Part shown: piece by piece, positions 35,301 to 59,462 of the stretch | How positions within the stretch are numbered: the stretch's first letter is position 1 | Layout: each line of letters begins with the position of its first letter | Source: Owenia fusiformis | Lineage: Eukaryota; Annelida; Polychaeta; Sabellida; Oweniidae | DNA length: 64,000 nt | Assembly (NCBI GenBank): GCA_903813345.2 | Contig: CAIIXF020000007.1 | Span: 2,981,730-3,045,729 of the forward strand | Direction of reading: 5' to 3' | Notes under the pieces: model-generated | Database searches by the model: none | What the model saw: only the letters and a program-made list of their open reading frames with translations | Told to the model about the DNA's origin: nothing | Position numbers and translations under genes: made by a program

Positions 35301-35825
35301 TCACCATTGTTCCATTCAGTTCAGTATTGTTCAATAAAGCTCACCATTGTTTGATTCAAAACTCCATTAGGTGGTGTCATTTTCATCACCATTGTTCCAT
35401 TCAGTTCAACATTGTTCAATAAAGGTCACCATTGTTTGATTCAAAACTCCATTATGTGGTGTCATTTTCATCACCATTGTTCCATTCAGTTCAACATTGT
35501 TCAATAAAGGTCACCATTGTTTGATTCAAAACTCCATTATGTGGTGTCATTTTCATCACCATTGTTCCATTCAGTTCAACATTGTTCAATAAAGGTCACC
35601 ATTGTTTGATTCAAAACTCCATTATGTGGTGTCATTTTCATCACCATTGTTCCATTCAGTTCAACATTGTTCAATAAAGGTCACCATTGTTTGATTCAAA
35701 ACTCCATTGTGTGGTGTCATTTTCATCACCATTGTTCCATTCAGTTCAATATTGTTCAATAAAGGTCACCATTGTTTGGTTCAAAACTCCATTGTGTGGT
35801 GTCATTTTCATCACCATTGTTAACT
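35301..35825. repeat. 85-bp tandem array, about six units
   Basis: TCACCATTGTTCCATTCAG recurs at 35301, 35386, 35471, 35556, 35641 and 35726, exactly 85 bp apart, and a truncated start occurs at 35811. The units are nearly identical. It ends 35 bp from the WD40 gene stop codon, so it lies in that gene's 3'UTR or just beyond. Confidence 0.9.
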
Positions 35826-39000: not shown

Positions 39001-42000
39001 TATATTAAAGACTAATCTGATTAAAGAAAAACATAAATTAAAGGATTCAACAATATTTTGATAGGTTGTGAAAGCTTTACTTACCGGCATATCATCTTCA
39101 ATAACCGAGCCCTCAATATCAGAATTCACAGCTATATTATGTACAGCGCATCCTGTGGCAATATCCAAGATTCTAATGTAATGGCGGGATGGAGACATGC
39201 ATAAAACTTCTGAAAAGTTAAACATTTAAGATTAAGTTTAATAGTGTTATTTGACACAAGGTATTACCATGTATGTAAAATCAACACATGATGTATGCAT
39301 GCAAAATTGACCTTTGAATCATTCTCTTTCAATTGGTTTAAAAGAAGTCAAATCCATTATTTTCCTCATTAAAAGAAATTGTTTATTATGTTTTATTACC
39401 GTTCTTGTGGAAAACATTATCTTCAGTATATGTCTCATTGAGAAGTAAAATTCAAAATTCAAATTAAATGTCGAAGCTACTGCGTGACATAATGGGTGGT
39501 TTAATGCAAAAAAATTCTGACATTTCCGGTATTTCTCGACTATTTATGGCTGTATACCTTTGTTGTCATTCACCAACCAGAAGTCATTCCAGGTGTCATT
39601 CAAATGAACATCAAACATGTGTACAATAGTTGATGCCTCCATGTCACACAAGACTAACACGTCACATTTTTTAGATGGTTCTTGAAGTCTACACACGGCA
39701 TGGGTTGAATCAATGAATTTCAAATCGTCTATGTATTTAGAGATTGGTCTGCCTTCATGTACAAGCTGTAAAATAACTAGATTTTGGAAATTGAACGAGT
39801 TCAATTTCAGACTCCAGATCTAGACTTTTTTTAGCCGAGTCATCCAGAATAAGCCAAGTCATCCAAAATAAGCTAAGTCATCCAGAAAAAGATGGATGGA
39901 TGGATGAAAAAGGAAGGAAGGATACGATAGAATAGGAAGGAACGATAGGATAGAATAGGAAAGAAGGATAGAATAGAATAGGAAGAAGGGATAGAATAGG
40001 AAGGATAGGAAGGAGAGGATACGAAGCAAGGGTAGATAGGAAAGATAGGATAGGATCAGAAAGGAAGGATGGATGCATTTTTCAATATTTTCTTCTCTAC
40101 TCTTGACTTTCTACCAGGATACCATCAGATCGATTTTTCTTGAAATTTCCTTCCGAACCGGAAGTCGGATCGAAATTTGATTTGCAGATTCGGATTCCTG
40201 ACAATTTTCTACCCCTAATTCATAACTCATACGTTAAATTTGGCGAATTTTTATTTTGACCTACTTTTCGGACACGCCATAACTTCGGAACCGGAAGTCG
40301 AATCGAAATTTGGTAAGCAGATTTGGTTTTCTGAGAAAATTCAATTCTTAATTCATAACTCAAACGTTAAATTTGGAGAACTTTTTATTTTGACCTACAT
40401 TTCGAACACCATATCTCAAAAGTGGGTCAAAATACTTTCTGGAGGCAAAAGGCTTTCGCTATTAGCACACTCTTGGCTACATGTATACACAATTTCGAGG
40501 AATATAATTAAAGTGTAGTGTCAGAATCGCAAAAATAAGGATTAACTATGAATTTGACCTAGATTTTGACCTAGGGATTTTGGTGTCCAAATTTTGAAAT
40601 TAGGTAGCCTTCGAAGTTCCCTTCTTTCATAGGCTTTCATTAATTTAAGCTGTAATTAGTCTATATCTTGTATTTTACACTTCAAAAAAATCTTTTTTCT
40701 CATTGACATAACATGTGGCACCAAATTTAGCGATTTTTGAGCTTTCAAAATGTCATAAATTCCGAACCAGAAGTCGGATTGAAATTTGGTTTGCAGATTC
40801 GGACTCCTGAGAAAATTTTATACTTAATTCATAACTCAAACGTCAAATTTGGAGATTTTTTATTTTGACCTACTTTTCGGACACCATATCTCAAAAGTGG
40901 GGCAAAATACTTTCTGACGGCAAAAGGCTAACACTATTAGCACACTCTTGGCTACATGTATACAAAATTTCGAAGAATTTAATTAATCTGTAGTGTCAGA
41001 ATCGCAAAAATAAGAAGAAACTTTGAATTTGACCTAGATTTTGACCTAGGCATTTTGATGTCCAAATTTTAAAGCTAGATAACTTTTGAGGTCCCATTCT
41101 TTTAAAAGCTTTCATTATATTTAGCTGAACTCAGTCTATATTTCGTATTTTTCACTTCAAAAAAATCTTTTTTCCCATTGACTTAACATGGGCACCAAAT
41201 TTAGCGACTTTTGAGCTTTGAAAACGCCACAACTTCCGAACCGGAAGTCTGATTCGAATTTGGTTTTCAGATTCGGAATCCTGAGAAAATTTCCTACAAG
41301 AATAATATCCTGGACATTTGATTCGGAGAACTTTTTTTTGGACCTCGTTTTCGGACAATGATATCTCGAAATCGGTTTGAGATATCAAAAAACTAAATGA
41401 CCCTGGGTTTCCCACTTTTTTATGAGGAACACAATGAAAAAAACCCGGATCGAAAATATTGAAGGACGACCGAGAAAATCGAAAAAAGTGACAAAGTACT
41501 GGATTTGACCTAGTTCTTGACCTTTGACCTAGATAGAAATTTGACCCAATTTCCGAGGAACTAGATACTGAACCTAAATTGACCAAATGATTGACTTTAC
41601 TGAAGACCTTATGGTTATTGAGGAAACTGGTTTAGAAAAAGAAGAAGAAGAAGAAGAAAACTGACGAAAACAATAGACTCCAGATTTCATCTGGAGTCTA
41701 ATAAAAGTGTATGTATTTCATCTTTTTGCTTTCATAAGTTTAGGAACAGCTCTAATGGGTAAACTACCTGACCCAGTCTAGCTACAAGTCCCTATTGTGC
41801 AATGGCTTAGTGAGACTATACTTCACCTAGAAATATGTAAAGTAGTGGTATCGATATGGAGAACTTTTTGAACACACGTTTCTCTTTAACCAGTCATAAA
41901 AAAAATCTAAATATTTAACACATCGTCAAATTAATGGTCATCTTTTGAATGGTAACAATATAATTTGAAAAATAAATATACTTTCATCTATATTGTTTTA

Positions 42001-45000
42001 GAAAACACATCAAACACTTGTTTTGTTCTTGGTATCACGTTTCCAGAGTGAAATGAAACATCTTTCCAAACCTCATTGGAACAAAACGACATAAACACAA
42101 CATGTTTAGGTCTCTCAATATTGTAATTGTACAAAGGAAATTTTGGTTGATTTTAAAAAAGTATCTTGTTAATGAAATAAAAGGTTTATCTTGATTTTTA
42201 TCTATTTTGGGGTGATTTTGTTTTAATTTTATGAATACTTTTTTAAATCAACCAAAAAATCCTTTGTATTACTATAATATTGAGAGGTCTAAAAACATGT
42301 TGTATATGCTATTTTGTTCCAACAAGGTTCGGAAAGACATTTTATTTCATTCTCAAGAATTGGTAGAAAGGAGCAAAAACAATTGCACTAAAAAAACAAA
42401 AAATGTTAACAAAAACAGTTATATAAAATATTTCTAAATAATTTTTGCAATAAATTGTTGTCAATCAGTCAACATTACATAAAATACCGTGTTTTTTACA
42501 GAATGTTTTCAATAATTGGTTTAAGAGAAAAACACTGTTTAATTCATTTAATTCAGTTCTCCATATCGATACCACTCCTTTCTTTGTTGATAAAATCCAT
42601 GAAACCACATTTTTATGTTAATATTGGAATCATGAAATTTTTTTCAACTTGTATCCAGTCGATTAAAAAATCAATATTACTAAAGAAATACATACTTGTA
42701 TGCGCCTGGCCATTTTATCATCCATAAGGTCATATACCGCTATCTGGGTGCCATTGCGAGGATTCTTGTTTCCATAGTTTGCGGAGTATGTACATGCTAT
42801 GTACCTATCATTACCTACAATTGGAAACAGCCTTTTGGTACTTGCAGTTCCCTCTCTGAAATTAAAGACATAATGGTTACAGATATGGGCTAAAAAATGT
42901 CATATTAGTTATGAAAACACATAATATACAGTAGAACCTGTGTAAGTGGAACACCCTCCGTTCTGCCAAAAAGCGTTCCACTTAGGAGGTGTTCCACTTA
43001 CGGAGGTTTTAGGTTCGCGGGGATTTAACAAACATACAAGATTAAATATAGAGTTGATATGTATCACTGAAATAAGATTCTCCGATCATTGCAGGGCAGC
43101 AATATAGCATTAATTATTCATTTGTTTTACTCAAAAAGGTATCTGACATTCTTAATCCTCCTCATTCTGCCAAAAATGTTTTCTGACATTCTTAATCCTG
43201 CTCATTCTGCCAAAAATATTTTCTGACATTCTTAATCCTCCTCATTCTGCTAAAAATGTTTTCTGACATTCTCAATCCTCCTCATTCTGCCAAAAATGTT
43301 TTCTGACATTCTCAATCCTCCTCATTCTGCCAGTCTCAAACACTAAGATAAGGCAATTAAGTTTTAAAGACTTGTTCCTAATGCTAATAATTCATTTGTT
43401 TTTAACTGACATTCTTAAGCTTACTTATTAAGTATGAAACAAACAGCAAGGGGTAAGAGGCAAGAGCATCACATGTCCATCTCTTAATCCAATTTACTTA
43501 ATGATAATCCTATGAAATTCTAATTTGCTTATTATCAAATTAATTAGTGGTAGCATCACATGTTGATCTCTACAGGAGGTTAATCCAATTGACTATATGG
43601 TAATCCATTAAAATCCTAATTTGCCAATATCACGTTATTACCTGTTTTCATACCCAGGTATCATTGTTGGAGTTTAATTTTGTTTACATTAGTATCACTA
43701 TTGAAATTTATAAAAAATTGACTGTTCCACTTAGCAGGTTAATTTTTCAATATGGGGTGTTCACCGTTCAAGTTTGGAGGTGTTCCACTTACAGAGGTTC
43801 AATTAACATTAAGTCAATGGGTTTTTAAAATTGGACTTTGAAAAAGCGTTCCACTTGCGAGGTGTTCCACTTACAGAGATGTTCCACTTAACAGGTTCTA
43901 CTGTACATGTATATTCAAGGTTTGTATATATATTAAGTTCAAATACTCATCATAAGCACAAAGTTACAAAGTTGATTTAAGTGTTATTCATCATTTTATT
44001 GAAATAAAAGTGATATTTCCTAAAGCATTAAAACATTTTGAATGTTAAAGTAAAGTATAAACTCACATAATTACAAAGCAAAAATATTTTCAAAATTTAC
44101 TGCTGACCTTTATTTGAGAACAAGTAACTCACTCCATTTGATTTTCTTTAGGTTGCTCTTGATCAACTCTTGTTAGGTCCCATATCCTTAGCTTTCCATC
44201 CATCGCTAAGGTAACAGCTTGTTTACTTGTTGCCATAGCAACATCATTGATGGGGGAAGCATGTTTGGCCATTATTTGCACTGTTCCAGTGGATATATCA
44301 ATGATTGAGATTTCTTCAGATGATGGTGAGTAGTACTGGTTAACATTATTAGGCATCCATTTTATTTGATGGGGCTCACCATCTACTAAGTTGTCATCTA
44401 AAATTAGATTGCCTTTAAGTACAGACATTTTACACAAAAATTTTATGTATGAATTACTACCATCCCAGAGAATATCTTATATATTAGACTTTTGTCTTAA
44501 GTCAAATGAAATTATGGTTTACTTTTTATTTTATTAAACTGAAGCTATCAAACCTATAGATCACTTCAAGTCATCAACTCAATCCCATGTCATTCAAACG
44601 CCATGTCAACTCAACCCTGAATCAACTCAATCCTATGGCATTCTAACTCCATTTCAATGTGACCATGAATCAACTCAACCCCATGTCAATTGAAAATTGT
44701 GTCAACTTGACCTTGAATCAACTCTATCCCATATCATTTTAATTCCTGGTCAATGTGGCCATGAATTAACTCAACCCCATGTCATTCTAACTCCAGGTCA
44801 ACTTGATCTTGAATCAACTCAGCCCCATGTCATTCTACCTCCAGGTCAACTTGACCATGAATCACCAGATCATCTTCAAGTTCACCATAACCCTTATATT
44901 ATCAATCTACATATTCTTACCTTCTATGACCATAAGTTGCTCTCTCTCAGGCCATGAGAAAACATGGATAGTGAAGTTATAGGAGGAAAAAACAACAATC

Positions 45001-46216
45001 TTTGTCTCATCATGGTTCAGTAGAACCCACTCAAATTGCTCATCCTCCTGATCATCATTGTCATCAGTATCTTCTGGTTTACTGCGTGTAATCACCAGCT
45101 CCTTGTAAAAGAACCCCAAAATACATGTATTTTATTTAATACTCTTAAACCTCTTTAGCAGATACTATTAAAGGGACATAAAAATAAAAAGTCCATGGGC
45201 ATGTAATAGGAAAATTGTGTTTAGTATGGGTATGTTTCCCAGGGCTTCGGGGTTTAGGGCTTGTTTATAGCATTTTATTAACTTTTGCAGCCACTACAAT
45301 CATGAACAAAGTTTTTTGCTCAAATTAAAACATTCAGATCGTGCTCCTCGTCAGTCCAAAATCAATGTATCACAGAGTCTTATAGCAGCGTGTATTTATC
45401 CATTCCATACTAGCAACAGAAATACTCAAAAATCTATATGAATATCGAAGGACAGGTCAGTCAATTTATCAAAAAATTTCTCATAACCCTGTGTTTGAGT
45501 GACGTCAGGGTTCCAAGTACAGGACGACGAGTTTATCTAACAGGGGTAAAAATATCTGAACTCGCCATTTTATTGAAAGATGGCAGCTGCATTAGACCTA
45601 CCTTGTCTTTTAGTACAAGGGAGAAATCTCGATGTATGCAATTGGACGAAATTCGACTCACTTTCATGTGGTGAACGGACGAAAGGCAGGCGAGATATAA
45701 TGCCGTGATAGCCGTACTTTTCATATATAAAGAAAAACGTTAAGAATATGGCAAAAATTAATAAACCAATTTTTGAACTGATGAGGAGCATGAAAAAATC
45801 CATATCAAAAATGAATACAAAAATTATTGAAAATGAGTTTTGGTTCCTACACAGATGTGTTTGTGTAAAAAAGTCATTACATGCAGGATTCGCATATGGA
45901 AAACAAAGTAAAAGTACATTGTCAAAGTAGTTTATTTATTGAACATCAGCGTTTATTCTTTCAAATGATTTATGCAATGACACAAGAATAGTTATACTAA
46001 GTATAGTTTGATTTATAAATATTGAGTGAAAGTGTGCCATGGCCATTGAGATAAGATAAATGGGTCACTTCTGGTATAGATTTACAACAGTCCCCAAGAT
46101 CTTGGCATTTTAAATGTTAAAAGTGATTACCTTCTCATCATAGTATTCATCAGTTTCCATGTCAAATCCACCAATCCTGTTTGATCCAGTGCCGTAGACA
46201 ATATACCTTGATCCTC
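35860..46216 (-). CDS. WD40/beta-propeller protein, last 12 exons (5' partial), 666 aa visible
   Basis: Twelve minus-strand exons join in one frame to a TGA at 35860-35862. WD-like blades are recognisable: HASPINDVAMATSKQ followed by DGKLRIWDL (exon at 44133) and KKLIVWDGRSGKLLASF (exon at 37408). Weaker blades contain IVYGTGSNRIGGFD, ISIIDISTGTVQ, IRILDIATGCAV and IMRIYDASS. The tail is very acidic (EDDYEDDDDND). There is no signal peptide or membrane segment in the visible part. Long propellers of this kind occur in NACHT-WD and other scaffold proteins, but no NACHT or other N-terminal domain is in the window, so the function is open. The 5' exons were not found before the repeat array at 47.6 kb. 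Confidence 0.7.
36451..36622 (-). CDS. WD40 gene exon (YYSYVQSRHIDGSIVF)
   Basis: 57 codons plus one base, acceptor CATTTCAG and donor CACAA|GTAAGT. It encodes LYYSYVQSRHIDGSIVFTVS and LPYTPNYDEVFKGT. It probably forms the last propeller strands. Confidence 0.75.
36954..37239. mobile_element. 286-bp MITE with CAGTGGCGTAGCG ends and 5-bp target repeat
   Basis: The ends CAGTGGCGTAGCG and CGCTACGCCATTG are flanked by ACTGT on both sides. Next inward, GTGTACGCCATGAGG faces TACGCCATGGCG-type sequence. It is in an intron of the WD40 gene and related to 12974-13365. Confidence 0.75.
37408..37574 (-). CDS. WD40 gene exon with clear WD blade
   Basis: Acceptor TTTATAG, donor GATGAT|GTAAGT. It encodes GTLLHRLFGHEGTQPFF, then KKLIVWDGRSGKLLASF. 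The GH...WD spacing is that of a WD40 repeat. Confidence 0.8.
37783..37950 (-). CDS. WD40 gene exon (GKLLHNMADVDYAVKY)
   Basis: Acceptor GTCTTGCAG, ending phase 1 at TCAG|GTATGT. It includes ILALYGSIVLISCNDIMRIY, which has the hydrophobic strand pattern of a degenerate propeller blade. Confidence 0.75.
38207..38395 (-). CDS. WD40 gene exon (GLDSMVEEENKNDDL)
   Basis: Acceptor TTTTAACAG, ending phase 1 at TCAG|GTGAGA. It encodes RIYMHMSKFTKDNRFIIIVM and ESVPHVVDIKS, again a strand-rich degenerate blade. Confidence 0.75.
38424..38622. mobile_element. 199-bp TA-flanked MITE, CACTCCCCTTC family
   Basis: It starts CACTCCCCTTCAAAAAGTTT and its right end is AAACTTATGGAGACGGTG, with TA at 38422-38423 and 38623-38624. 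It sits in a WD40 gene intron and is related to 4009-4474. Confidence 0.7.
38821..38953 (-). CDS. WD40 gene exon (ISPDNTLIALRPIDRK)
   Basis: Acceptor TTTTTTTTCAG, ending phase 1 at TCAG|GTGAAA. It encodes ISPDNTLIALRPIDRK, then FELHIYDIPSRKKVTVF, matching the SPD...hxhYDh pattern of a propeller blade. Confidence 0.75.
39085..39209 (-). CDS. WD40 gene exon (IRILDIATGCAVHNI)
   Basis: Acceptor AACTTTTCAG, ending phase 0 at CCG|GTAAGT. It encodes SPSRHYIRILDIATGCAVHN, a WD-like strand pair with D in place of the usual WD, then an acidic loop. Confidence 0.75.
39558..39765 (-). CDS. WD40 gene exon (LVHEGRPISKYIDDL)
   Basis: Acceptor TAGTTATTTTACAG, ending phase 1 at AAAG|GTATAC. It encodes CRLQEPSKKCDVLVLCDMEA and WNDFWLVNDNK. 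A repeat element begins only about 10 bp from its 3' splice site. Confidence 0.75.
39890..40078. repeat. GGAA/GATA-rich low-complexity tract
   Basis: Dense, irregular mixture of GGAAGGA, GATAGAATAGG and GGATGGATG on the plus strand, inside the hairpin-ended element. Confidence 0.85.
40100..41600. repeat. Three ~520-bp internal tandem units
   Basis: Units share CTTCCGAACCGGAAGTC, TTGACCTACTTTTCGGACA, CATATCTCAAAAGTGG, GGCAAAAGGCTAACACTA and TTGACCTAGATTTTGACCTA. The third unit is shorter and more diverged. The GGCAAAAGGCTA and TTGACCTAGATTTTGACC blocks also occur in the 47.6-64 kb array, linking the two. Confidence 0.7.
41843..42590. mobile_element. Foldback MITE in the WD40 gene
   Basis: The ends are GTGGTATCGATATGGAGAAC and its complement near 42560-42590. 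The arms pair over most of the length, including TTTAGGTCTCTCAATATTG and AATATTGAGAGGTCTAAA. It is non-coding. Confidence 0.75.
42696..42855 (-). CDS. WD40 gene exon (RLFPIVGNDRYIACTY)
   Basis: Acceptor CTTTAATTTCAG, ending phase 0 at ATACAA|GTATGT. It encodes GTASTKRLFPIVGNDRYIAC and GTQIAVYDLMDDKMARRIQ, a clear propeller blade with YD in the WD position. Confidence 0.75.
42929..43903. mobile_element. Tigger/pogo-like non-autonomous element
   Basis: The ends are CAGTAGAACCTGTGTAAGTG and CACTTAACAGGTTCTACTG, with TA at 42927-42928 and 43904-43905. CAGTAGAACCT tips with TA targets are typical of pogo/Tigger elements. Several GTTCCACTTA repeats lie near each end, and no transposase is present. 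Confidence 0.75.
43140..43332. repeat. 41-bp tandem repeat, about five units
   Basis: Units of TCTGACATTCTTAATCCTCC then TCATTCTGCCAAAAATGTTT, nearly identical. They lie inside the pogo-like element. Confidence 0.85.
44133..44397 (-). CDS. WD40 gene exon with best WD repeat
   Basis: 88 codons. It encodes ISIIDISTGTVQIMAKHASP, then DGKLRIWDLTRVDQEQ, with donor TGGA|GTGAGT. The acceptor could be TTTTAG (exon to 44397) or the nearby CTTAG (exon to 44385); both keep frame. Confidence 0.8.
44570..44880. repeat. ~45-bp minisatellite in WD40 gene intron
   Basis: Diverged units of GAATCAACTCAACCCCATGT, then CATTCTAACTCCAGGTCAAC. About seven copies. Confidence 0.75.
44921..45101 (-). CDS. WD40 gene exon (ELVITRSKPEDTDDND)
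   Basis: Acceptor CTTTTACAAG, ending phase 1 at GAAG|GTAAGA. An acidic loop is followed by FEWVLLNHDETKIVVFSSYN and IHVFSWPEREQLMVI, a typical propeller blade. Confidence 0.75.
45102..46130. other. Intron of the WD40 gene
   Basis: No exon is needed here by frame. 45480-45730 is GC- and CpG-richer and contains GTGACGTCA; it may be part of an old mobile element that I could not delimit. Confidence 0.45.
46131..46216 (-). CDS. WD40 gene, most 5' exon found
   Basis: Acceptor GCTTCCAG, donor GAGAAG|GTAATC. It encodes GSRYIVYGTGSNRIGGFDME and ETDEYYDEK. It starts with two bases of a split codon, so at least one more upstream exon must exist. Confidence 0.7.
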
Positions 46217-46248
46217 CTGGAAGCATTTACAAGATATTTTTCAGAGAC

Positions 46249-46334
46249 CAGGGTGACCCCAAAAAACAGTACCCTCTAAAATAGTAATCATTAATAACTG
46301 CCAACTGCCAGTTCTGTTTTTTGGGGTCACTCTG
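46249..46334. mobile_element. 86-bp miniature palindromic element
   Basis: The ends CAGGGTGACCCCAAAAAACA and TGTTTTTTGGGGTCACTCTG pair over about 21 bp, leaving only ~40 bp between. TA follows on the right; the left flank is AC. Its tips fit a very short Tc1/mariner-type MITE. It lies 32 bp beyond the last WD40 exon. Confidence 0.7.
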
Positions 46335-46750
46335 TACATGAGTATATTTGTCAATAATATTTGGGATGCTTCGATGTTTCATGGATTATTTACCCTCCCC
46401 CTCTCCACATTCAATGAAAAGTATTTAAAATTCAATGGTAGAATTAAAGGAATATTCCTTGCCAGACCCTTTCTCTCTTGATATGGTAGCTATAATCATA
46501 TATATAGTTTCCATATTTAGCAAAACATGGGAAAATGTTTTAATATGGCCAATATTGATCATTTAAAAATCTAGTGCTTATTTCCAGTGAGCTGCTATCT
46601 TTTAAGATTTCTTGCAGGAAGTGATGTCATCAACTCTCAACTTCTATAACCTTGCCCATAACAGTATAGGAAAGTAGCAAAAAATCACTTCTAGACAAGT
46701 GATCATTACTTTCTGTGCAAAAATATTTTCAGAGCTGCCCTTAAGAAAAA
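46335..46750. other. No gene seen
   Basis: AT-rich sequence in which the missing 5' exon of the WD40 gene could not be found. Confidence 0.4.
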
Positions 46751-46905
46751 AGCCATGGTAACCATGGTATTCCATGGTGCGCCCATGGTAATCCATGGTT
46801 TTCCATGGAAATTCATGGTTTTCCATGTTATTTTCCATGGAAATTCATGGACACCCATGGTAATCTTCCATGGATATTTACCATGATTTTCCGTGGTAAT
46901 TGTTG
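46751..46905. repeat. CCATGG-rich palindromic cluster
   Basis: About ten CCATGG hexamers plus near-variants within 155 bp, separated by short TTTT, AAATT or GTAA spacers. CCATGG is self-complementary, so the tract can fold in many registers. Confidence 0.75.
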
Positions 46906-47394
46906 GTTTGGTAATTGGTTTTTAATGGATGTGTCATGGAGATGTAAAATCAACAATTTTGGTCGGATTTGTATTTACCAAAATCTCAAAAATGAATGTT
47001 TTGATGATATATCCCAGTTAGACTGAGACTTATCATTGAGAAAAAAGGGTGGACATTTCATTTTGAAGGTATAGCAAGAACATTCATCGAATGTTAGACT
47101 CAGCTTACAAATGAGAAAATATGTGAAACAGCAGAGCAGAGAGTAGGCCACAAGATTTCAAAAACAATTGTGCAAAGGTCTTTTGTGTAGATCAAGACTA
47201 GATAGAGATTGCTTATTTTTTAGGCCAAACACTTCTTTCCTTTGAAAAAGATTAAGTCAAACTAGCCCAAGCTCTGTTTTATTTCAATACTTTCTTTAAT
47301 TTTCAGTTTTAAAAATCAATATGAAGTAATTTAAGAAATAAATAACTCATTTTTTTAAATTACATTTCGTACATTTGAGAATACAATCAAAAAC
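46906..47394. other. No gene seen
   Basis: AT-rich sequence between two CCATGG clusters, with no supported exon on either strand. Confidence 0.4.
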
Positions 47395-47580
47395 CATGGT
47401 TTCTTTCTTTGAAGTTGAGAAAACTGCAATCAAAAGCCATGGAAGACGGTTGATTGCAATCGAAAGCCATGCTTTTCCATGGTTATTTCTTTGATGTTTT
47501 GGAAAGTGCAATCAAAAGCCATGGTTTTCCATGATTATTCTTTTGATCTTTTGAAAGTCCATGGTTTTCCATGGGCTATT
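47395..47580. repeat. Second CCATGG repeat cluster
   Basis: Three or four units of TGCAATCAAAAGCCATGG, then TTTTCCATGG and a TTTGATCTTTTG-like stretch. It sits directly before the large array. Confidence 0.7.
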
Positions 47581-47609
47581 TGTTTGGTCTTTTGGAAGCA
47601 GAAAAATGA

Positions 47610-48974
47610 ACTAGAGATCTAACGATCTAAGATTGCAAGCAATCTTACGGAGGCCCTATATTCGTTTCTGAACATTCAAAGGCCAGCCAAAGGTCAAATC
47701 TCTAATACAAGGTCATATATGAACTCCAGACAACTTGTGGATGATTTTTAAAAAAGGTTTGGTCGAATTAATGCAAGTTGAAATTTGACCTTGAAAAATT
47801 CCAAAATTTGACCTTTTTTCAGTTTTTGAGCTATAATATCTCAAAACTGGAGCCAAATTTTAATAGATAATCAATTGCTAATATGTGTAGAACCTTCAGT
47901 AGAAGAATATATATTCTGACTTTCATTTAAAAATATTGATTTGTAGTCTCCAATTTTGAGAAACTTAGAAAACACAGTTTGTGATTTCGTTTGATGACCT
48001 TGACCTTTGACCTTGCAAATTTTACTTTTTTAGACCTCAGAAGGTCTTTTGTGAATAAATATACCTAAATTTGAATCCAGAAAATCGATTTGAAAAATCA
48101 ACTTTTTTGCCCTTTCGGAGGTCACTGAAGGTCAACCAAAGGTCAAAGGTCAAAAGTAAGGTTAGATTTGGAATCCTGAGAACTTGTAGATGAGTTTTAA
48201 AAAAAAATTGGTCAATTTGAAGCAAGTTGAAATTTAGTCTTGAAAAGTTTCGAAATTTGACCTTTTTTCAGTTTTTGAGTTCCAATATCTCAAAACTGGT
48301 ACACAATTTTAATGAATAGTCAATTGCTAATATGTGTAGAACCTATAGAGGAATATATATCCTGACTTTCATGAAAAAATATTGATTTGTAGTCTCCAAT
48401 TTTGAGAAACTTAGAAAACACAGTTTGTGATTTAGTTTGATGACCTTGACCTTTGACCTTGCAAATTTTACTTTTTTAGACCTCAGTAGGTCCTTTGTGA
48501 TCAAATATACCTAAATTTGAATCCAGAAAATCAATTTGAAAAAACAACTTTTTTTACCTTTCGAAGGTCAACCAAAGGTCGGAGGTCAAAAGTAAGGACA
48601 TATTTGAGTTCCTGAGATCTTGTAGATGATTTTTAAAAAAAAATCTGGTTCATTTGAAGCAAGTTGAAAAATGACCGATTTTTGACGTCAAATATCTCAA
48701 AAACGGTAAAAAATTAACGCGTACATATAGTGAGCAATTTGTAGAGAATGCTTATATCTAGTTACATTTTAATTCATCGCAAGAAATAATGAAGTATGAG
48801 GACGAAATCTGAGAAACTTAAAAAAAGCTTAGATTTGACCTAGATTTTGACCTTTGACTTTGACCTAGATATAAAGGTCTTTCCCGCCAAGTTCAGCTAA
48901 GGTCCCTAGTAGGACTATGTAGTAGCTAGTTGAAAGTTAGTCGGAAGTAGGAGAAAAAGAGGGAGGAAGAATAA
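47610..48974. repeat. Array module 1 (1365 bp)
   Basis: The head ACTAGAGATCTAACGATCTA is followed by AGATTGC-AA-GCAATCT and ACGGAGGCCC. The body has about two TGACCT/AGGTCA units. The tail has CTAGTAGGACTATGTAGTAG and TCGGAAGTAGGAGAAAAAG, then an AGAATAA end that meets the next head. Confidence 0.8.
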
Positions 48975-50968
48975 ACTAGAGATCTAACGATCTAAGATTG
49001 CAAGCAATCTTACGGAGGCCCCGTAGATACCACAGTTTGTCACCTAATTTGACGACCTTGACCTTTGACCTTGAAAATTTTACTTTTTCAGAGCTCAGTA
49101 TGTCTTTTGTGATTAAGCGGACTTAAATTTGAATCCAAAAAGTCAATTTGAAAAATCAACTGTTTTTTACCTTTCGAAGGTCACAGAAGGTCAACTAAAG
49201 GTCAAAGGCCAAATTTGAGGTCAGATTTGAACTCCTGAGACTTTGTAGACGCTTTTTTAAAAAAAAAAATTTGTCAATTTGAAGCAAGTTGAAATTTGAC
49301 ATTGAAAATTTTCGAAATTTGACTTTTTTTCAGTCCTTGAGCTCTTATATCTCAAAACTGGTGCAAAATTTTAATAGATAGTCAATTCCTAATATGTGAA
49401 TTACCTCTAGAGGAATATATATCCTGACTTTCAACCAAAAATATTGATTTGTAGTCTTCAATTCTGAGAAACTTAGATAGCACAGTTTGTGACCTAATTT
49501 GATGACCTTGACCTTTGACCTTAAAAATTGTACTTTTTCAGAGCTCAGTATGTCCTTTGTGATTAAGCTGACCTAAATTTGAATCTAAAAAATCATTTTG
49601 AAAAATCAACATTTTTTACCTTTCGAAGGTCACAGAAGGTCAAGTAAAGGTCAAAGGTCAAATCTGAGGTCAAATTTGAACTCCTGAGACTTTGTAGATG
49701 CTTTTTAAAAAAATATTTGGTCAATTTGAAGCAAGTTGAAATTTGACCTTCAAAATTTTCGAAATTTGACCTTTTTTCAGTTCTTGAGCTCTTATATCTC
49801 AAAATTGGTGCAAAATTTTAATAGATAGTCAATTGCTAATATGTGAAGTACCTCTAGAGGAATAGATATCCTGACTTTCAACCAAAAATATTGATTTGTA
49901 GTCTCGAATTTTGAGAAACTTAGATAGCACAGTTTGTTATCTAATTTGATGACCTTGACCTTTGACCTTGAAAATTTTACTTTTTCAGAGCTCAGTATGT
50001 CCTTTGTGATTAAGCTGACCTAAATTTAAATCCAAAAAATCAATTTGAAAAATCAACTTTTTTGACCTTTCGAAGGTCACAGAAGGTCAACTAAAGGTCA
50101 TAGGTCAAAACTAAGGTCAGATTTGAGTTCCTGAGATCTTGTAGATGCTTTTTAAAAAAAATTTGGTCAATTTAGAGCAAGTTGAAATTTGACCTTGAGA
50201 AATTTCAAAATTTGACCTTTTTTCAGTTTTTCAGTTCTAATATCTCAAAACTGGAGCAAAATTTTAATAAATAGTCAATTGCTAATATGTGTAGAACCTT
50301 TAGAGGAATATATATTCTGACTTTCAGTAAAAAAATTGATTTGTAGTCTCCAATTTTGAGAAACTTAGAAAACACAGTTTGTGATTTCGTTTGATGACCT
50401 TGACCTTTGACCTTGCAAATTTTTCTTTTTTAGACCTCAGTGGGTCTTTTGTGAATAAATATACCTAAATTTGAATCCAGAAAATCGAGTTGAAAAATCA
50501 ACTTTTTTGACCTTTCGGAGGTCACTGGAGGTCAACCAAAGGTCAAAGGTCAAAAGTAAGGTCAGATTTGGAATCCTTAGAACTTGTAGATGAGTTTTAA
50601 AAAAAAATCTGGTTCATTTGAAGCAAGTTGAAAAATGACCGATTTTTGCCGATTTTTGACGTCAAATATCTCAAAAACGGTAAAAAATTAACGCATACAT
50701 ATAGTGAGCAATTTGTAGAGAATGCTTATATCTAGTTATATTTTAATTCATCGCAAGAAATAATGAAGTATGAGGACGAAATCTGAGAAACTTAAAAAAA
50801 ACTTAGATTTGACCTTGATTTTGACCTTTGACCTTGACCTAGATATGAACTAATTTCCCGACAAGTCCAGCTCATGTCCCTAGTAGGAGCATATAAGAGT
50901 TAATTCAGACCTAGCTAGAAGTAGGAGAAAAAGTGCTAAAAAGAATAATAAGAATAAGAAGAATAAGA
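48975..50968. repeat. Array module 2 (1994 bp)
   Basis: Same head type as module 1, about four internal units and the same tail, ending in AATAAG microsatellite. Confidence 0.8.
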
Positions 50969-53690
50969 ACTAGACTTTTGAAGATTGCAAGCAATCTCAC
51001 GGAGGCCCTCTTAGGCATTTTTGACAATTTGAAGGTCAACTAAAGGACAAATATCAAATCTGAGGTCAGATGTGAACTCCTGAGAACTTGTAGATGATTT
51101 TCAAAAAACGATTTTGTCAATTTGAAGTGAGTTTAAATTTGACCTTGAAAAATTTCGAAATTGACCTTTTTTCAGCTTTTGAACTCTTATATCTCAAACT
51201 GGGACAAAATTCCATTAGAAAGTCAATTGCTAATATGTGTAGAACCCTTAGAGGAATGTGTATATTTCGACTTCGGATTAAAAATATCGGTTTGTAGTCT
51301 CGAACTTTGCGAAACTTAGATAGCACAGTTTGTGACCTAATTTCATGATCTTGACCTTTGACCCTGAAAAGTTTTACTTTTTTAGACCTCAGTAGGTCTT
51401 TTGTAATTAGGCTGACCTAAATTTGAATCCAAAGACTCAATTTGAAAAATCAACTTTTTTTACCTTTCGAAGGTCATTGAAGGTCAACTAAAGGTCAAAG
51501 GTTAAATCTGAGGTCAGATTTTGACTCCTAGGAACTTGTAGATGATTTTTAAAAAAAAATTTGGTCAGATTGAAGCAAGTTGAAAAATGACCTTTTTAGA
51601 CCGTTTTTGACGTCAAATATCTCAAAAATGGTAAAAATTTAATGCTGACATATTGTAAACAATTTGTAAAGAATACTAAAAAGTAGTTTCAGTTTAATTC
51701 ATCGCAAGAAATAATGAAGTATAAGGACAAAGTTGAGAAACTTGAAAAAATTTTAGATTTCACCTAGATTTTGACCTTTGACCTAATTTGATAGCCGTGA
51801 CCCTTGACCTTGAAAATTTTACTGCTTTAGAGCTCAGTAGGTCTTTTATGATTAGGCTAACCCTAAATTTGAATCCAAACACTCAATTTGAAAAATCAAA
51901 TTTTCTGACCTTTCGAAGGTCACTGAAGGTCAACTGAAGGTCAAATGTCAAATCTGAGGTTAAATATGAACTCCTGAGAAGTTGTAGATGATTTTTAAAA
52001 AAAAGATGGGTGAATTTGAAGGAAGTTAAAATTTGACCTTATAAACTTTGAAAAATTGACCTTTTTCAGTTTTTGAGCTCTAATATCTCAAAACTGGGAC
52101 AAAATTTTAATAAATAGTCAATAACTAATATGTGTAGAACCCTTAGAGGAATGTATATCTTGACTTTCAATTAAAAATATTGATTTGTAGTCTTGAACTA
52201 TGAGATACTTAGATAGCACAGTTTGTGACCTAATTTGATGACCTTGACCTTTGACCTTGAAATTTTTACTTTTTTAGACCTCAGTAGGCTTTTTGTAATT
52301 AGACTGACCTAAATTTGAATCCAAAGACTCAATTTGAAAAATCAACTTTTCTGACCTTTCGAAGGTCACTGAAGGTCAACCAAAGGTCGAATGTCAAATC
52401 TGAAGTCAGATTTGGACTCCTGGGAACTTGTAGATGATTTTTAAAAAAAGATTTGGTCAGATTGAAGCAAGTTGAAAAATGACCTTTTTAGACCGTTTTT
52501 GACGTCAAATATCTCAAAAATGGTAAAAATTTAATGCTGACATATTGTAAACAATTTGTAAAGAATACTAAAAAGTAGTTTCAGTTTAATTCATCGCAAG
52601 AAATAATGAAGTATAAGGACAAAGTTGAGAAACTTGAAATTTTTTTAGATTTGACCTAGATTTTGACCTTTGACCTAATTTGATAACCGTGACCCTTGAC
52701 CTTGAAAATTTTACTGCTTCAGAGCTCAGTAGGTCTTTTATGATTAGGCTTACCCTAAATTTGAATCCAAACACTCAATTTGAAAAATCAAATTTTCTGA
52801 CCTTTCGAAGGTCACTGAAGGTCAACTAAAGGTCAAATGTCAAATCTGAGGTTAAATATGAACTCCTGAGAAGTTGTAGATGATTTTTTAAAAAAAGTTG
52901 GGTGAATTTGAAGCAAGTTAAAATTTGACCTTATAAACTTTGAAAAATAGACCTTTTTCAGTTTTTGAGCTCTTATATCTCAAAACTGGGACAAAATTTT
53001 AATAAATAGTCAATGGCTAATATGTGTAGAACCCTTAGAGGAATGTATATCTTGACTTTCAATTAAAAATATTGATTTGTAGTCTTGAACTATGAGATAC
53101 TTAGATAGCACAGTTTGTGACCTAATTTGATGACCTTGACCTTTGACCTTGAAATTTTTACTTTTTTAGACCTCAGTAGGCTTTTTGTAATTAGACTGAC
53201 CTAAATTTGAATCCAAAGACTCAATTTGAAAAATCAACTTTTCTGACCTTTCGAAGGTCACTGAAGGTCAACCAAAGGTCGAATGTCAAATCTGAAGTCA
53301 GATTTGGACTCCTGGGAATTTGTAGATGATTTTTAAAAAAAAAATTGGTCAGATTGAAGCAAGTTGAAAAATGACCTCTTTTGACCATTTTTTGACATCA
53401 AATATCTCAAAAACGGTAAAAAATTAATGCTGACATATAGTGAACAATTTGTAGAGAATACTTAAATGTAGTTTCAGTTTAATTCATCGCAAGAAATAAT
53501 GAAGTATAATGACAAACTTGAGAAACTTGAAAAAAAACTTAGATTTGACCTTGATTTTGACCTTTGACCTTGACCTAGATATGAAATATTTTCCCATCAA
53601 GATCAAACCAGGTTTCTAGTAGGAGCATATAGTAGAAAGTTGAAAGCTAGTTGAAAGTAGGAGAAAACTGCTTTGATAGAATAATAATAA
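50969..53690. repeat. Array module 3 (2722 bp)
   Basis: Second head type, ACTAGACTTTTGAAGATTGC, followed by CTCACGGAGGCCCTCTTAGG. Units alternate between a GGGACAAAATT-containing type and a TTCATCGCAAGAAATAATG type. The tail ends AATAATAATAA. Confidence 0.8.
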
Positions 53691-54599
53691 ACTAGACTTT
53701 GGAAGATTGCAAGCAATCTCACGGAGGCCCTCTTAGGCATTTTTGACAATTTGAAAGTCAACTAAAGGACTAATATCAAATCTGAGGTCAGATGAGAACT
53801 CCTGAGAACTTGTAGATGATTTTCAAAAAAAGATTTTGTTAATTTGAAGCAAGTTTAAATTTGACCTTGAAAAATTTCAAAATTGACCTTTTTTCAACTT
53901 TTGAACTCTTATATCTCAAACTGGGACAAAATTCTATTAGATATTCAATTGCTAATATGTGTAGAACCCTTAGAGGAATGTGTATATTTCAACTTCGGAT
54001 TAAAAATATTGGTTTGTAGTCTCGAACTTTGCAAAACTTAGATAGCACAGTTTGTGACCTAATTTCATGACCTTGACCTTTGACCTTGAAAAGTTTTACT
54101 TTTTTAGACCTCAGTTCGTCTTTTGTAATTAGGCTGACCTAAATTTGAATCCAAAGACTCAATTTGAAAAATCAACTTTTCTTACCTTTCGAAGGTCATT
54201 GAAGGTCAACTAAAGGTCAAAGCTCAAATCTGAGGTCAGCTTTGGACTCATGGGAACTTGTAGATGATTTTTAAAAAAAAAATTGGACAGATTGAAGCAA
54301 GTTGAAAAATGACCTTTTTGACCGTTTTTGACGTCAAATATCTCAAAAATGGTAAAAATTTAATGCTGACATATTGTGAACAATTTGTAGAGAATACTAA
54401 AATGTAGTTTCAGTTTAATTCATCGCAAGAAATAATGAAGTAAAAGGACAAACTTGAGAAACTTGAAAAAAAATTAGATTTGACCTAGATTTTGACCGTT
54501 GACCTAATTTGATAACCATGACCCTTGACCTTGAAAATTTTACTGCTATAGAGCTCAGTAGGTCTTTTATGATTAGGCTAACCCTAAATTTGAATCCAA

Positions 54600-56880
54600 A
54601 CACTCAATTTGAAAAATCAACTTTTCTGACCTTTCGAAGGTCACTGAAGGTCAACTAAAGGTCAAATGTCAAATCTGAGCTTAAATATGAACTCCTGAGA
54701 AGTTGTAGATGATTTTAAAAAAAAAGTTGGGTGAATTTGAAGCAAGTTAAAATTTGACCTTATAAACTTTGAAAAATTGACCTTTTTCAGTTTTTGAGCT
54801 CTTATATCTCAAAACTGGGACAAAATTTTAATAAATAGTCAATAGCTAATATGTGTAGAACCCTTAGAGGAATGTATATCTTGACTTTAAATTAAAAATA
54901 TTGATTTGTAGTCTTGAACTATGAGAAACTTAGATAGCACAGTTTGTGACCTAATTTCGATGACCTTGACCTTTGACCTTGAAATTTTTACTCTTTTAGA
55001 CCTCAGTAGGCTTTTTGTAATTAGACTGACCTAAATTTTAATCCAAAGACTTAATTTGAAAAATCAACTTTTCTGACCTTTCGAAGGTCACTGAAGGTCA
55101 ACTAAAGGTCAAATGTCAAATCTGAGGTTAAATATGAACTCCTGAGAAGTTGTACATGATTTTTAAAAAAAAGTTGGGTGAATTTGAAGCAAGTTAAAAT
55201 TTGACCTTATAAACTTTGAAAAATTGACCTTTTTCAGTTTTTGAGCTCTTATATCTCAAAACTTGGACAAAATTTTAATAAATAGTCAATGGCTAATATG
55301 TGTAGAACCCTTAGAGGAATGTATATCTTGACTTTCAATTAAAAATATTGATTTGTAGTCTTGAACTATGAGAAACTTAGATAGCACAGTTTGTGACCTA
55401 ATTCGATGACCTTGACCTTTGACCTTGAAATTTTTACTCTTTTAGACCTCAGTAGGCTTTTTGTAATTAGACTGACCTAAATTTGAATCCAAAGACTCAA
55501 TTTGAAAAATCAACTTTTCTGACCTTTCGAAGGTCACTGAAGGTCAACTAAAGGTCAAATGTCAAATCTGAGGTTAAATATGAACTCCTGAGAAGTTGTA
55601 CATGATTTTTAAAAAAAAGTTGGGTGAATTTGAAGCAAGTTAAAATTTGACCTTATAAACTTTGAAAAATTCACCTTTTTCAGTTTTTGAGCTCTTATAT
55701 CTCAAAACTGGGACAAAATTTTAATAAATAGTCAATGGCTAATATGTGTAGAACCCTTAGAGGAATGTATATCTTGACTTTCAATTAAAAATATTGATTT
55801 GTAGTCTTGAACTATGAGAAACTTAGATAGCACAGTTTGTGACCTAATTTGATGACCTTGACATTTGACCTTGAAATTTTTACTTTTTTAGACCTCAGTA
55901 GGCTTTTTGTAATTAGACTGACCTAAATTTGAATCCAAAGACTCAATTTGAAAAATCAACTTTTCTGACCTTTCGAAGGTTACTGAAGGTCAACTAAAAG
56001 TCAAAGGTCAAATCTGAGGTTAAATATGAACTCCTGAGAAGTTGTACATGATTTTTAAAAAAAAGTTGGGTGAATTTGAAGCAAGTTAAAATTTGACCTT
56101 ATAAACTTTGAAAAATTCACCTTTTTCAGTTTTTGAGCTCTTATATCTCAAAACTGGGACAAAATTTTAATAAATAGTCAATGGCTAATATGTGTAGAAC
56201 CCTTAGAGGAATGTATATCTTGACTTTCAATTAAAAATATTGATTTGTAGTCTTGAACTATGAGAAACTTAGATAGCACAGTTTGTGACCTAATTTGATG
56301 ACCTTGACATTTGACCTTGAAATTTTTACTTTTTTAGACCTCAGTAGGCTTTTTGTAATTAGACTGACCTAAATTTGAATCCAAAGACTCAATTTGAAAA
56401 ATCAACTTTTCTGACCTTTCGAAGGTTACTGAAGGTCAACTAAAAGTCAAAGGTCAAATCTGAGGTTAAATATGAACTCCTGAGAAGTTGTACATGATTT
56501 TTAAAAAAAAGTTGGGTGAATTTGAAGCAAGTTAAAATTTGACCTTATAAACTTTGAAAAATTGACCTTTTTCAGTTTTTGAGCTCTTATATCTCAAAAC
56601 TGGGACAAAATTTTAATAAATAGTCAATGGCTAATATGTGTAGAACCCTTAGAGGAATGTATATCTTGACTTTCAATTAAAAATATTGATTTGTAGTCTT
56701 GAACTATGAGAAACTTAGATAGCACAGTTTGTGACCTAATTTGATGACCTTGACATTTGACCTTGAAATTTTTACTTTTTTAGACCTCAGTAGGCTTTTT
56801 GTAATTAGACTGACCTAAATTTGAATCCAAAGACTCAATTTGAAAAATCAACTTTTCTGACCTTTCGAAGGTCACTGAAG
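54600..56880. repeat. Homogeneous 446-bp tandem units, five copies
   Basis: The landmark GTCTTGAACTATGAGA occurs at 54911, 55358, 55804, 56250 and 56696, i.e. steps of 447, 446, 446 and 446. The units are nearly identical, far more alike than units elsewhere in the array, so they expanded recently. Confidence 0.9.
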
Positions 56881-57336
56881 GTCAACTAAAGGTCAAAGGT
56901 CAAATCTGAAGTCAGATTTGGACTCCTGGGAACTTGTAGATGATTTTTAAAAAAAAAATTGGTCAGATTGAAGCAAGTTGAAAAATGACCTCTTTTGACC
57001 GTTTTTTGACGTCAAATATCTCAAAAACGGTAAAAATTTAATGCTGACATATAGTGAACAATTTGTAGAGAATACTTAAATGTAGTTTCAGTTTAATTCA
57101 TCGCAAGAAATAATGAAGTATAATGACAAACTTGAGAAACTTGAAAAAAAACTTAGTTTTGACCTAGATTTTGACCTTTGACCTTGACCTAGATAAAAAA
57201 TATTTTCCCCCCAATTTCAGCCAAGGTTCCTAGTAGGATCATATAGTAGGTAGTTGAAAGCTAGTTGGAAGTAGGAGAAAAATGCTTTGATAGAATAAGA
57301 ATAATAAGAATAAATAAAGAAAACCTACAAAAGCTA

Positions 57337-57364
57337 TAGGAGGCCCTTTCAGGAGGGCCTCCTA
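57337..57364. repeat. GGAGGCCC terminal hairpin, copy 1
   Basis: Perfect 11-bp stem TAGGAGGCCCT / AGGGCCTCCTA with loop TTCAGG, followed by ATAA. Preceded by CTACAAAAGCTA. Confidence 0.85.
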
Positions 57365-57399
57365 ATAAATAAATAAATAAAGAAAAGCTACAAAAGCTA

Positions 57400-57427
57400 T
57401 AGGAGGCCCTTTCAGTAGGGCCTCCTA
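57400..57427. repeat. GGAGGCCC terminal hairpin, copy 2
   Basis: Same 11-bp stem with loop TTCAGT. Followed by ATAATAATAATA and the next module head. Confidence 0.85.
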
Positions 57428-57439
57428 ATAATAATAATA

Positions 57440-59462
57440 ACTAGAGATCAAGATTGCAAGCAATCTTACGGAGGCCCGTAGGTGTTTTGGCCTTATATGG
57501 TCAACCAATGGTCAAAAGATGGTTATTAAGTCAGTTTCTAAGTCAGCTAGTTACTAAGTTAGTTATTGACTACGTAAGTTACTAAGTTAGTAACTTTAAG
57601 TATATTACTAAGTAAGTTATGAAGTTGGTTATATGGTTTCTTCCAAGGTCAACCAAAGGTCAAAACTAAAGTCAGATTTGAACTCCTGATAATTTGTAGA
57701 TGGTTTTTAAAAAAAAGTTTGGTCAATTTAGAGCAAGTTGAAATTTGACCTTAGAAATTTCGAAATTTGACTTTTTTAAGTTTTTGAGCTCTAATATCTC
57801 AAAACTGGTGCAAAATTTGAATAGATAATCAATAAGTAACATGTGTATAACCTTGAGAGGAATCTATATTCTGACTTTCATTAAAAAATATTGATTTGTA
57901 GTCACCAATTATGAGAAACTTAGAAAACACAGTTTGTGATTAAGCTTGATGACCTTGACCTTTGACCTTGCAAATTTTACTTTTTTAGGCCTCAGTAGGT
58001 CTTTTGTGAATAAATATACCTAAATTTAAACCCAGAAAATCGATTTGAAAAATCTACTTTTTTTACACTTTGGAGGTCACTGAAGGTCAACCAAAGGTCA
58101 AAGGTCAAAAGTAAGGTCAGATTTAAAATCCTGAGAACTTGTAGATGATTTTTAAAAAAAAGTTTGGTCAATTTAGATCAAGTTGAAATTTGACCTTGAA
58201 AAATTTCGAAATTTGACCTTTTTCAGTTTTTGAGCTCTAATATCTCAAAACTGGTGCAAGATCTTAATAAATAATCAATTGCTAATATGTTTAGAACCTT
58301 TAGAGGAATATATATCCTGACTTTCATTAAAAAATATTGATTTGTAGTCACAAACTTTGAGAAACTTAGAAAACACACTTTGTGATTTAATTCAATGACC
58401 TTGACCTTTGACCTTGAAAATTTTACTTTTTTGGACCTCTTAAGGTCTTTTGTGATTGAATGCACCTAAATTTGAATCCCAAAAATCGATTTTACAAATC
58501 AACTTTTTTGACCTTTCGAAGGTCACTGAAGGTCAACTAAAGGTCATAGGTCGAAACTAAGGTCAGATTTGAGTTCCTGAGATCTTGTAGATGCTTTTTA
58601 AAAAAAAGTTTGGTCAATTTAGAGCAAGTTGAAATTTGACCTTGAAAAATTTCGAAATTTGACCGTTTTTCAGTTTTTGAGTTCTAATATCTCAAAACTG
58701 GAGCAAAATTTTAATAAATAGTCAATTGCTAATATGTGAAGAACCTTTAGAGGAATATATATTCTGACTTTCAGTAAAAAAATTGATCTGTAGTCTCCAA
58801 TTTTGAGAAACTTAGAAAACACAGTTTGTGATTTCGTTTGATGACCTTGACCTTTGACCTTGCAAATTTTACTTTTTTAGACCTCAGAAGGTCTTTTGTG
58901 AATAAATATACCTAAATTTGAATCCAGAAAATCGATTCGAAAAATCAACTTTTTTGACCTTTCGGAGGTCACTGAAGGTCAACCAAAGGTCAAAGGTCAA
59001 AAGTAAGGTCAGATTTGGAATCCTGAGAACTTGTAGATGAGTTTAAAAAAAAAAATTGGTCAATTTGAAGCAAGTTGAAAAAAGACCTTTTTTGACCTTT
59101 TTTTGACCTTCAATATCTCAAAATCTAGGCAAAATTTCTCTAGACGGCAAAAGGCTAAGACTAATAGAATACTAATATCTATCTGTATGCAAAAATTCAG
59201 CCAAAAATATTGAAGTGTAGTGTCAGGATTTGAGAAACTTGAAAAAAACTTAGATTTGACCTAGATTTTGACCTTGACCTAGATAAGAATTCCTTTCCCG
59301 CCAAGTTCAGCCAAGGTCCCTAGTATGGCTATGGAAGAGCTAGTTGAAAGGTAGTTGGAAGTAGGAGAAAAGGTCCCGGGAAGAATAAATAAAGAATAAA
59401 GAATAATAATATCTACAAAATTAATAGGAGGCCCCTGCCGGGGGGCCTCCTAATAAAGAATA
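57440..59462. repeat. Array module 5 (2023 bp)
   Basis: Short head ACTAGAGATCAAGATTGC. An early stretch has GTTACTAAGT/AAGTCAGTT repeats (57510-57640), and about three units follow. The last unit contains GGCAAAAGGCTAAGACTA, as in the 40 kb element. It ends with a hairpin at 59425-59452. Confidence 0.8.
59425..59452. repeat. GGAGGCCC terminal hairpin, copy 3 with compensated change
   Basis: Stem TAGGAGGCCCC / GGGGCCTCCTA, loop TGCCGG. Relative to copies 1 and 2 the innermost T-A pair is C-G, so the stem stays perfect. Confidence 0.85.

Follow-up and report, generated by a model that had tools for sequence, protein, structure and literature searches.

Two related repeat subfamilies of the annelid Owenia fusiformis are very probably non-autonomous rolling-circle transposons of the Helitron2/Helentron kind

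In Helitron2 transposons an asymmetric terminal inverted repeat (ATIR) lies 0-2 bp from the 5′ terminus and takes part in a hairpin there; its 3′ counterpart precedes the 3′ hairpin (Bao and Jurka, 2013; PMC3627910). Compensatory changes were noted there in two related Helitron2 elements, and pairing between the ATIRs was suggested to open the 5′ hairpin and set the end point of replication. Among DINE-1-like elements of Drosophila, central repeat units are described as about 50 to 500 bp long, and the stem sequence of the 3′ palindrome differs between species, which in 2008 was taken as compensatory (PMC2374699). Here we describe elements with a comparable anatomy in a 64,000-nucleotide stretch of the Owenia fusiformis genome (assembly GCA_903813345.2, contig CAIIXF020000007.1, positions 2,981,730 to 3,045,729), referred to below as the window. 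It contains one complete element, E1, and an array of related elements, A1 to A7, that runs from 47.6 kb to beyond 64.0 kb.

We find that E1 and the array, both on the minus strand, very probably consist of HINE/DINE-1-like elements: non-autonomous Helitron2/Helentron-type rolling-circle transposons whose 3′ ends read CTAG. On that strand a (T)TAG start and a hairpin containing the 5′ ATIR are followed by a 5′ microsatellite, central tandem repeats of 446 or 475 bp, a 3′ ATIR, a palindrome and a terminal CTAG, and the flanks are T-rich. The class assignment is made because this order matches the published anatomy. A complete element thus starts with a perfect 11-12 bp hairpin and ends with an inverted copy of its arm, a second short palindrome and CTAG. 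The 5′ ATIR, also termed a subterminal inverted repeat (subTIR), lies within about 0-4 bp of the end and is paired in the 5′ hairpin at all four 5′ ends, and by sequence an inverted 3′ ATIR stands directly upstream of the 3′ palindrome at all eight 3′ ends. Runs of TTC or TTATT come after the 5′ hairpin, ahead of the 475- and 446-bp units. The elements have no coding capacity: the array holds no stop-to-stop open reading frame of at least 120 aa, and a 159-aa stop-to-stop frame in E1 has no Pfam match up to E 0.1.

The first letters of E1, at 41700, are TAG and form part of the hairpin TAGACTCCAGAT-GAA-ATCTGGAGTCTA; a TTC microsatellite comes next, and the element terminates at 39777, where the palindrome is followed by CAAAATCTAG. 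In the array, each 3′ end has a 3′ ATIR around GGGCCTCC, then the palindrome AGATTGC-TT-GCAATCT, then CTAG. Between the last two, A1 (47611-47645) and A2 (48976-49010), but no other 3′ end, carry an additional small hairpin, AGATC GTTA GATCT, which was folded for A1.

A sequence-only reading of the locus had placed these repeats on the plus strand and called their class unknown, with Helentron-type rolling-circle elements as one guess. The guess was right in kind, since the anatomy matches that of Helitron2, Helentrons and HINEs. The class is an already known one, and both the structural plan and the compensation within stems are already in print, the latter for Helitron2 and DINE-1 (PMC3627910, PMC2374699). 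All of the motifs cited are present: in E1, TAGACTCCAGAT/ATCTGGAGTCTA at 41674-41700, GACTCCAGAT at 39810-39819 and AAATTGAAC/GTTCAATTT inside 39787-39808; in the array, GGAGGCCC hairpins at 57337-57364, 57400-57427 and 59425-59452, together with seven heads of the form ACTAGA...AGATTGC/GCAATCT...GGAGGCCC (47610, 48975, 50969, 53691, 57440, 59463 and 62206). Their orientation is the reverse of that proposed, the supposed heads being 3′ ends and the supposed tails 5′ ends on the minus strand. What had been described as a head motif matching a 3′ hairpin is thus, because the strand was misread, the standard 5′ subTIR/ATIR with its inverted 3′ copy. ACTAGA by itself is not enriched and does not serve as a signature (31 matches against a mean of 30.08 in shuffles). 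The seven array 3′ ends are accompanied by only three 5′ hairpins (5′ ends at 57364, 57427 and 59452).

The AATAA-rich sequence that follows the plus-strand "tail" hairpin could have pointed to a plus-strand retroelement or ribozyme-bearing repeat, with ACTAGA as 5′ end, a 3′ hairpin and an A/TAA-rich tail. The array hairpins, however, have such sequence on either side, the features fall into order on the minus strand, and the window contains no Rfam match above the gathering score, so that we give this possibility practically no weight. A known RNA family or ribozyme was rejected on the same Rfam result, and ACTAGA as a plus-strand 5′ end was rejected on the order of the Helitron2 features and on the two structure scans described next, neither of which returned a plus-strand match.

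The strict scan required a hairpin with 9-bp arms, an inverted copy of the arm within 6 kb and another palindrome within the next 6 nt. It returned five overlapping rows in the window, on the minus strand only, which correspond to E1 and to the A4 3′ end joined to either adjacent 5′ hairpin; none of 40 dinucleotide shuffles gave a match. The combined plan that the two subfamilies had been said to share therefore exceeds chance. With relaxed settings (arms of 8 bp, a CTRR end and a reach of 12 kb), the scan gave 21 overlapping rows, every one on the minus strand and traceable to the four 5′ hairpins of E1 and the array, and a single match in each of 2 out of 60 shuffles. All four 5′ hairpins fold better than shuffled sequences (z -4.03 to -6.15), with at most 1 of 200 shuffles as good. 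Four of the eight 3′ palindromes were folded, with z scores of -4.62 (E1), -3.36 (A1), -2.53 (A5) and -1.56 (A3). The match between 3′ ATIR and 5′ arm is 11 nt in E1, 8-10 nt between array 5′ and array 3′ ends and 5-6 nt across subfamilies. Positions of the features are collected in Table 1.

Table 1. Features of E1, the array elements and their flanks in the window, with fold scores relative to shuffled sequences
Feature	Position	Strand	Remarks
E1, complete element, 1,924 bp, ends ambiguous by one T	39777..41700	-	5′ end at 41700; 3′ CTAG at 39780-39777
E1 5′ hairpin, 12-bp stem TAGACTCCAGAT / ATCTGGAGTCTA, loop GAA; holds 5′ ATIR/subTIR	41674..41700	-	fold z -6.15, 0/200 shuffles as good
E1 central tandem repeats, 475-bp unit, 2.1 copies	40274..41292	-	
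E1 3′ ATIR/subTIR ATCTGGAGTCT, 11-nt inverted copy of 5′ arm	39809..39819	-	
E1 3′ palindrome GAAATTGAAC TC GTTCAATTTC (5′ hairpin of the sequence-only reading)	39787..39808	-	directly after 3′ ATIR, before CAAAATCTAG; fold z -4.62
A1 3′ end: 3′ ATIR, palindrome AGATTGC TT GCAATCT, second small hairpin, CTAG	47611..47657	-	
A2 3′ end; ATIR variant GGAGGCCCC on plus strand	48976..49022	-	
A3 3′ end	50970..51009	-	
A4 3′ end	53692..53731	-	
A5 3′ end; ATIR variant GGAGGCCCG on plus strand	57441..57478	-	
A6 3′ end	59464..59503	-	
A7 3′ end; its 5′ end not seen in window	62207..62246	-	
A4 5′ hairpin/5′ ATIR (TAGGAGGCCCT / AGGGCCTCCTA)	57337..57364	-	fold z -4.52
Second array 5′ hairpin, given to A3 by nesting model (A4 inserted just inside)	57400..57427	-	fold z -5.16, 1/200 shuffles as good
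A5 5′ hairpin with C-G for T-A exchange (TAGGAGGCCCC / GGGGCCTCCTA)	59425..59452	-	fold z -4.03
Central tandem repeats of array elements, TRF periods 434-447 bp (main arrays), interrupted by element ends	47675..63908	-	
Flank repeats TTAT/TTTAT	E1 39776/41701; A4 53691/57365; A5 57440/59453		

The termini and their flanks bear on which kind of rolling-circle element this is. CTAG is followed by TT at all eight 3′ ends, and TTAT, equally readable as TTA before TTAG, precedes all four 5′ ends. A canonical Helitron (Helitron1), with 5′-TC, 3′-CTRR, one 3′ hairpin and no inverted repeats, would share some of these properties: CTAG with a palindrome just upstream, at a distance that varies with type, is in keeping with CTRR and a hairpin about 10-12 nt from the 3′ terminus; the flanks are compatible with insertion between A and T; and oyster elements are described as mixing both feature sets (PMC7992393). 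But the four 5′ ends start with TTAG or TAG and not with TC, and the elements possess a strong 5′ hairpin as well as a 3′ ATIR, whereas Helitron1 has neither a 5′ hairpin nor inverted repeats. We consider a canonical Helitron improbable.

E1 and the array differ in sequence within their paired stems. Their bodies are homologous on the same strand (best match 191 bp at 72.8%, E 7.6e-22), with no match at E 1e-3 on the opposite strand, and by eye the bases flanking the stems look alike. Because the subfamily bodies are homologous, the differences between the stems have arisen among relatives, without loss of pairing. When the 3′ palindromes are aligned from their outer ends, pair 1 reads G-C, A-T or G.T, pair 3 reads A-T in E1 and G-C in the array, and two extra A-T pairs occur near the loop of E1. 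Three outer pairs of the 5′ stem are kept, and most inner pairs differ yet remain complementary, although the alignment of the inner pairs is uncertain. Pairing that is kept despite sequence change, as the earlier reading had proposed, is therefore seen. Within the array one T-A pair is changed to C-G, in the 59425-59452 hairpin of A5. This exchange had been reported correctly; the ATIR of the same element does not track it. The C variant that would match the hairpin change (GGAGGCCCC) sits instead in A2, whose 5′ end is not seen. Tight covariation between head motif and hairpin rests on one between-subfamily contrast, and the lone within-array change contradicts it in its own element.

Several observations count against the assignment to Helitron2/Helentron-like elements. 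No transposase gene or autonomous partner was seen in the window. The beta-type 3′ palindrome, taken alone, folds weakly (17 of 200 shuffles are as good as A3). Random segment pairs of the window reach a 9-nt inverted match in 678 of 20,000 draws and an 11-nt match in 139 of 20,000; the pairs were drawn from the repeat-rich window itself, which inflates these counts, and we keep them as a caution. Since random pairs can reach 9-11 nt, an ATIR match alone is modest evidence. The 3′ ATIR of A5 (GGAGGCCCG) has G at the swapped position on the plus strand and so does not follow the change in its own hairpin. The element ends are ambiguous by one T, the flanks being compatible with TTA/TTAG...CTAG/T or with TTAT/TAG...CTAG/T (slashes mark the junctions). 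Finally, matching letters occur on both flanks in three of four elements: TTAT in E1 and A5 (4 nt) and TTTAT in A4 (5 nt). E1, unlike A4 and A5, does not sit in microsatellite, and of the 401 TTATT sites in the window only 21 go on to TTATTTAT. A short target site duplication is therefore possible, which is not expected of Helitrons; as a rule they lack one, although some Chlamydomonas Helitron2 elements are described with longer, variable duplications (PMC3627910).

These 4-5 nt direct repeats, like the inverted repeats near both ends, would suit a cut-and-paste element of another class, for example a DDE miniature inverted-repeat transposable element (MITE) or a foldback element with subterminal inverted repeats, and DINE-1 itself was formerly called a MITE. 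The flank repeat is absent in A3, however, where the nesting model leaves 1 nt common to both flanks, and in A4 and A5 it falls in a TTATT microsatellite. The 3′ inverted repeat is, moreover, subterminal and asymmetric, and the order of ATIR, palindrome and CTAG end fits rolling-circle ends. A cut-and-paste origin is thus quite unlikely, and Helitron2/Helentron-like elements remain the preferred assignment.

The array extends beyond the end first given for it, to at least 64000, and a blastn comparison of both elements with 1-39700 and 41750-47600 gave no match at E 1e-4. We think it somewhat the likelier account that new copies inserted again and again into the TTATT-rich 5′ microsatellites of older ones and so enlarged the array. 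At two of the six inter-element junctions, gaps of 11 and 13 nt separate a 3′ end from the complete 5′ end that comes next, and at each of the other four, which are hairpin-less, a 3′ end abuts a 5′ module cut off inside the microsatellite. When A4 is removed in silico, the 57427 hairpin rejoins the A3 body, with 76 versus 72 nt to the anchor. Nesting is favoured because all four hairpin-less junctions lie in the 5′ microsatellite and because removal of A4 restores a near-normal A3 module. A cost to this account is that it predicts four or more further 5′ hairpins past position 64000, outside the window.

Alternatively, the array alone could have grown in tandem, either through unequal crossing-over or because rolling-circle replication bypassed the 3′ terminator. 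A3 and A6 are 94.2% similar across nearly their full length (2,730 aligned columns), so that local duplication could also have occurred; a 63-bp tandem duplication spans the two adjacent 5′ hairpins, and tandem Helitron arrays elsewhere have been attributed to bypass. Against such growth, the four hairpin-less junctions fall at different points of the microsatellite, the A3 5′ module is restored by removal of A4, and an alpha-type copy, A5, lies between beta-type copies. We regard tandem growth as a serious though less probable route than nested self-insertion. Pairing array 5′ with 3′ ends by their best ATIR match (57427 with A1, 10 nt; 59452 with A2, 9 nt; 57364 with A3, A4, A6 and A7 equally, 10 nt) was set aside, as it crosses the bracket order of nesting and rests on single bases.

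The surroundings of E1 hold features of their own. Judged by eye, E1 apparently lies within an intron of a host gene (39563-42899, minus strand), and one exon of the same gene, at 44129-44476, weakly resembles WD40 (best Pfam E 8e-5, under curated cut-offs). A possible 3′ splice site (TTATTTTACAG/CTTGTACATGAA) follows the CTAG end of E1 after about 10 nt, and the element may therefore supply the branch-point region of this intron. A foldback or MITE-like element lies near the E1 5′ end at 41839-42581; its ends are inverted repeats of 27 nt (96%), and a further inverted repeat of 162 nt (71%) lies inside it. Another MITE-like element, at 42924-43908, is bounded by inverted ATATACAGTAGAACCTGT ends (94%) and contains several GTTCCACTTA repeats, and an 85-bp tandem repeat (6.1 copies, 98% matches) occupies 35300-35821.

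By analogy with relatives, the element would be nicked at its 5′ T by a RepHel transposase that an autonomous relative supplies in trans; one strand would then be peeled off, with a stop near the 3′ palindrome and a cut after CTAG. For a reconstructed bat Helitron, the 3′ hairpin is reported to act as terminator and circles to form (PMC4778049). Following the idea of PMC3627910, the two ATIRs may pair with each other, thereby opening the 5′ hairpin and defining where replication ends. Selection on the hairpin and on ATIR pairing would account for stems that have changed between subfamilies and are still paired. A stronger proposal is that co-change of three parts (the 5′ arm, its local partner and the distant 3′ ATIR) reflects a real strand exchange between the ends at rolling-circle termination, and that the element's own 5′ microsatellite is a preferred landing site which builds nested satellite-like arrays; this we put forward tentatively and with some doubt.

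Turning the strand gives an apparently unknown repeat its place in a known transposon class. The locus adds two related subfamilies whose ends could be used to test 5′/3′ ATIR pairing as the end of rolling-circle replication, and the array suggests a simple route by which such elements could seed satellite-like DNA, through insertion into their own 5′ microsatellite. The particular families were not found by name in the open literature, a search that lay outside Repbase and animal genomes, and a literature search with an 18-base central motif returned no matching papers. Neither the array 3′ end nor a 26-base stretch had an exact match in viral or genome contigs, nor did a 35-base central-repeat stretch in viral contigs, which carries little weight in collections made up mostly of viruses and prokaryotes.

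A comparison with described systems reveals shared features in each case. Helitron2 has in common with the Owenia elements a hairpin-borne 5′ ATIR, a 3′ ATIR just upstream of the 3′ hairpin, a T start and compensatory changes; a CTAG end is not given as its feature in the parts of PMC3627910 used here, and no RepHel is seen in our window. HINE and DINE-1-like elements (Thomas, 2014, PMC4067079; Yang and Barbash, 2008, PMC2374699; Cg_HINE, PMC7492417) share a 5′ subTIR paired with a local inverted repeat, a microsatellite in the 5′ module, central tandem repeats, a 3′ subTIR followed by a palindrome, T-rich targets and the absence of coding capacity. DINE-1 is said to lack Helitron termini (PMC3630058), whereas the elements here end in CTAG; the central units of oyster Cg_HINE, in 13 clusters, are mostly 140-180 bp (PMC7492417) as against 446 or 475 bp; and the Owenia array differs from these systems in having at least seven 3′ ends.

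Oyster Helitrons likewise combine a CTAG 3′ end with subTIRs, reported for 257 of 751 intact elements, but start with TC, and only one is described with a 5′ microsatellite (PMC7992393). Proto-Helentron-Pi shares 5′TT/3′CTAG termini and insertion between A and T, and differs as a coding element of about 14 kb (PMC4067079). FoHeli1/2 of Fusarium oxysporum are fungal elements of about 5-6 kb that end in ATTTT, and central satellite-like repeats are not mentioned in the sections of PMC5148889 drawn on here. They nonetheless resemble the Owenia elements in having ATIRs and hairpins at both ends and in inserting after TNAT (the next base is T in the legend of that paper and A in its text), and their short repeated 5′ termini have been put down to self-insertion, the process that we favour for the array.

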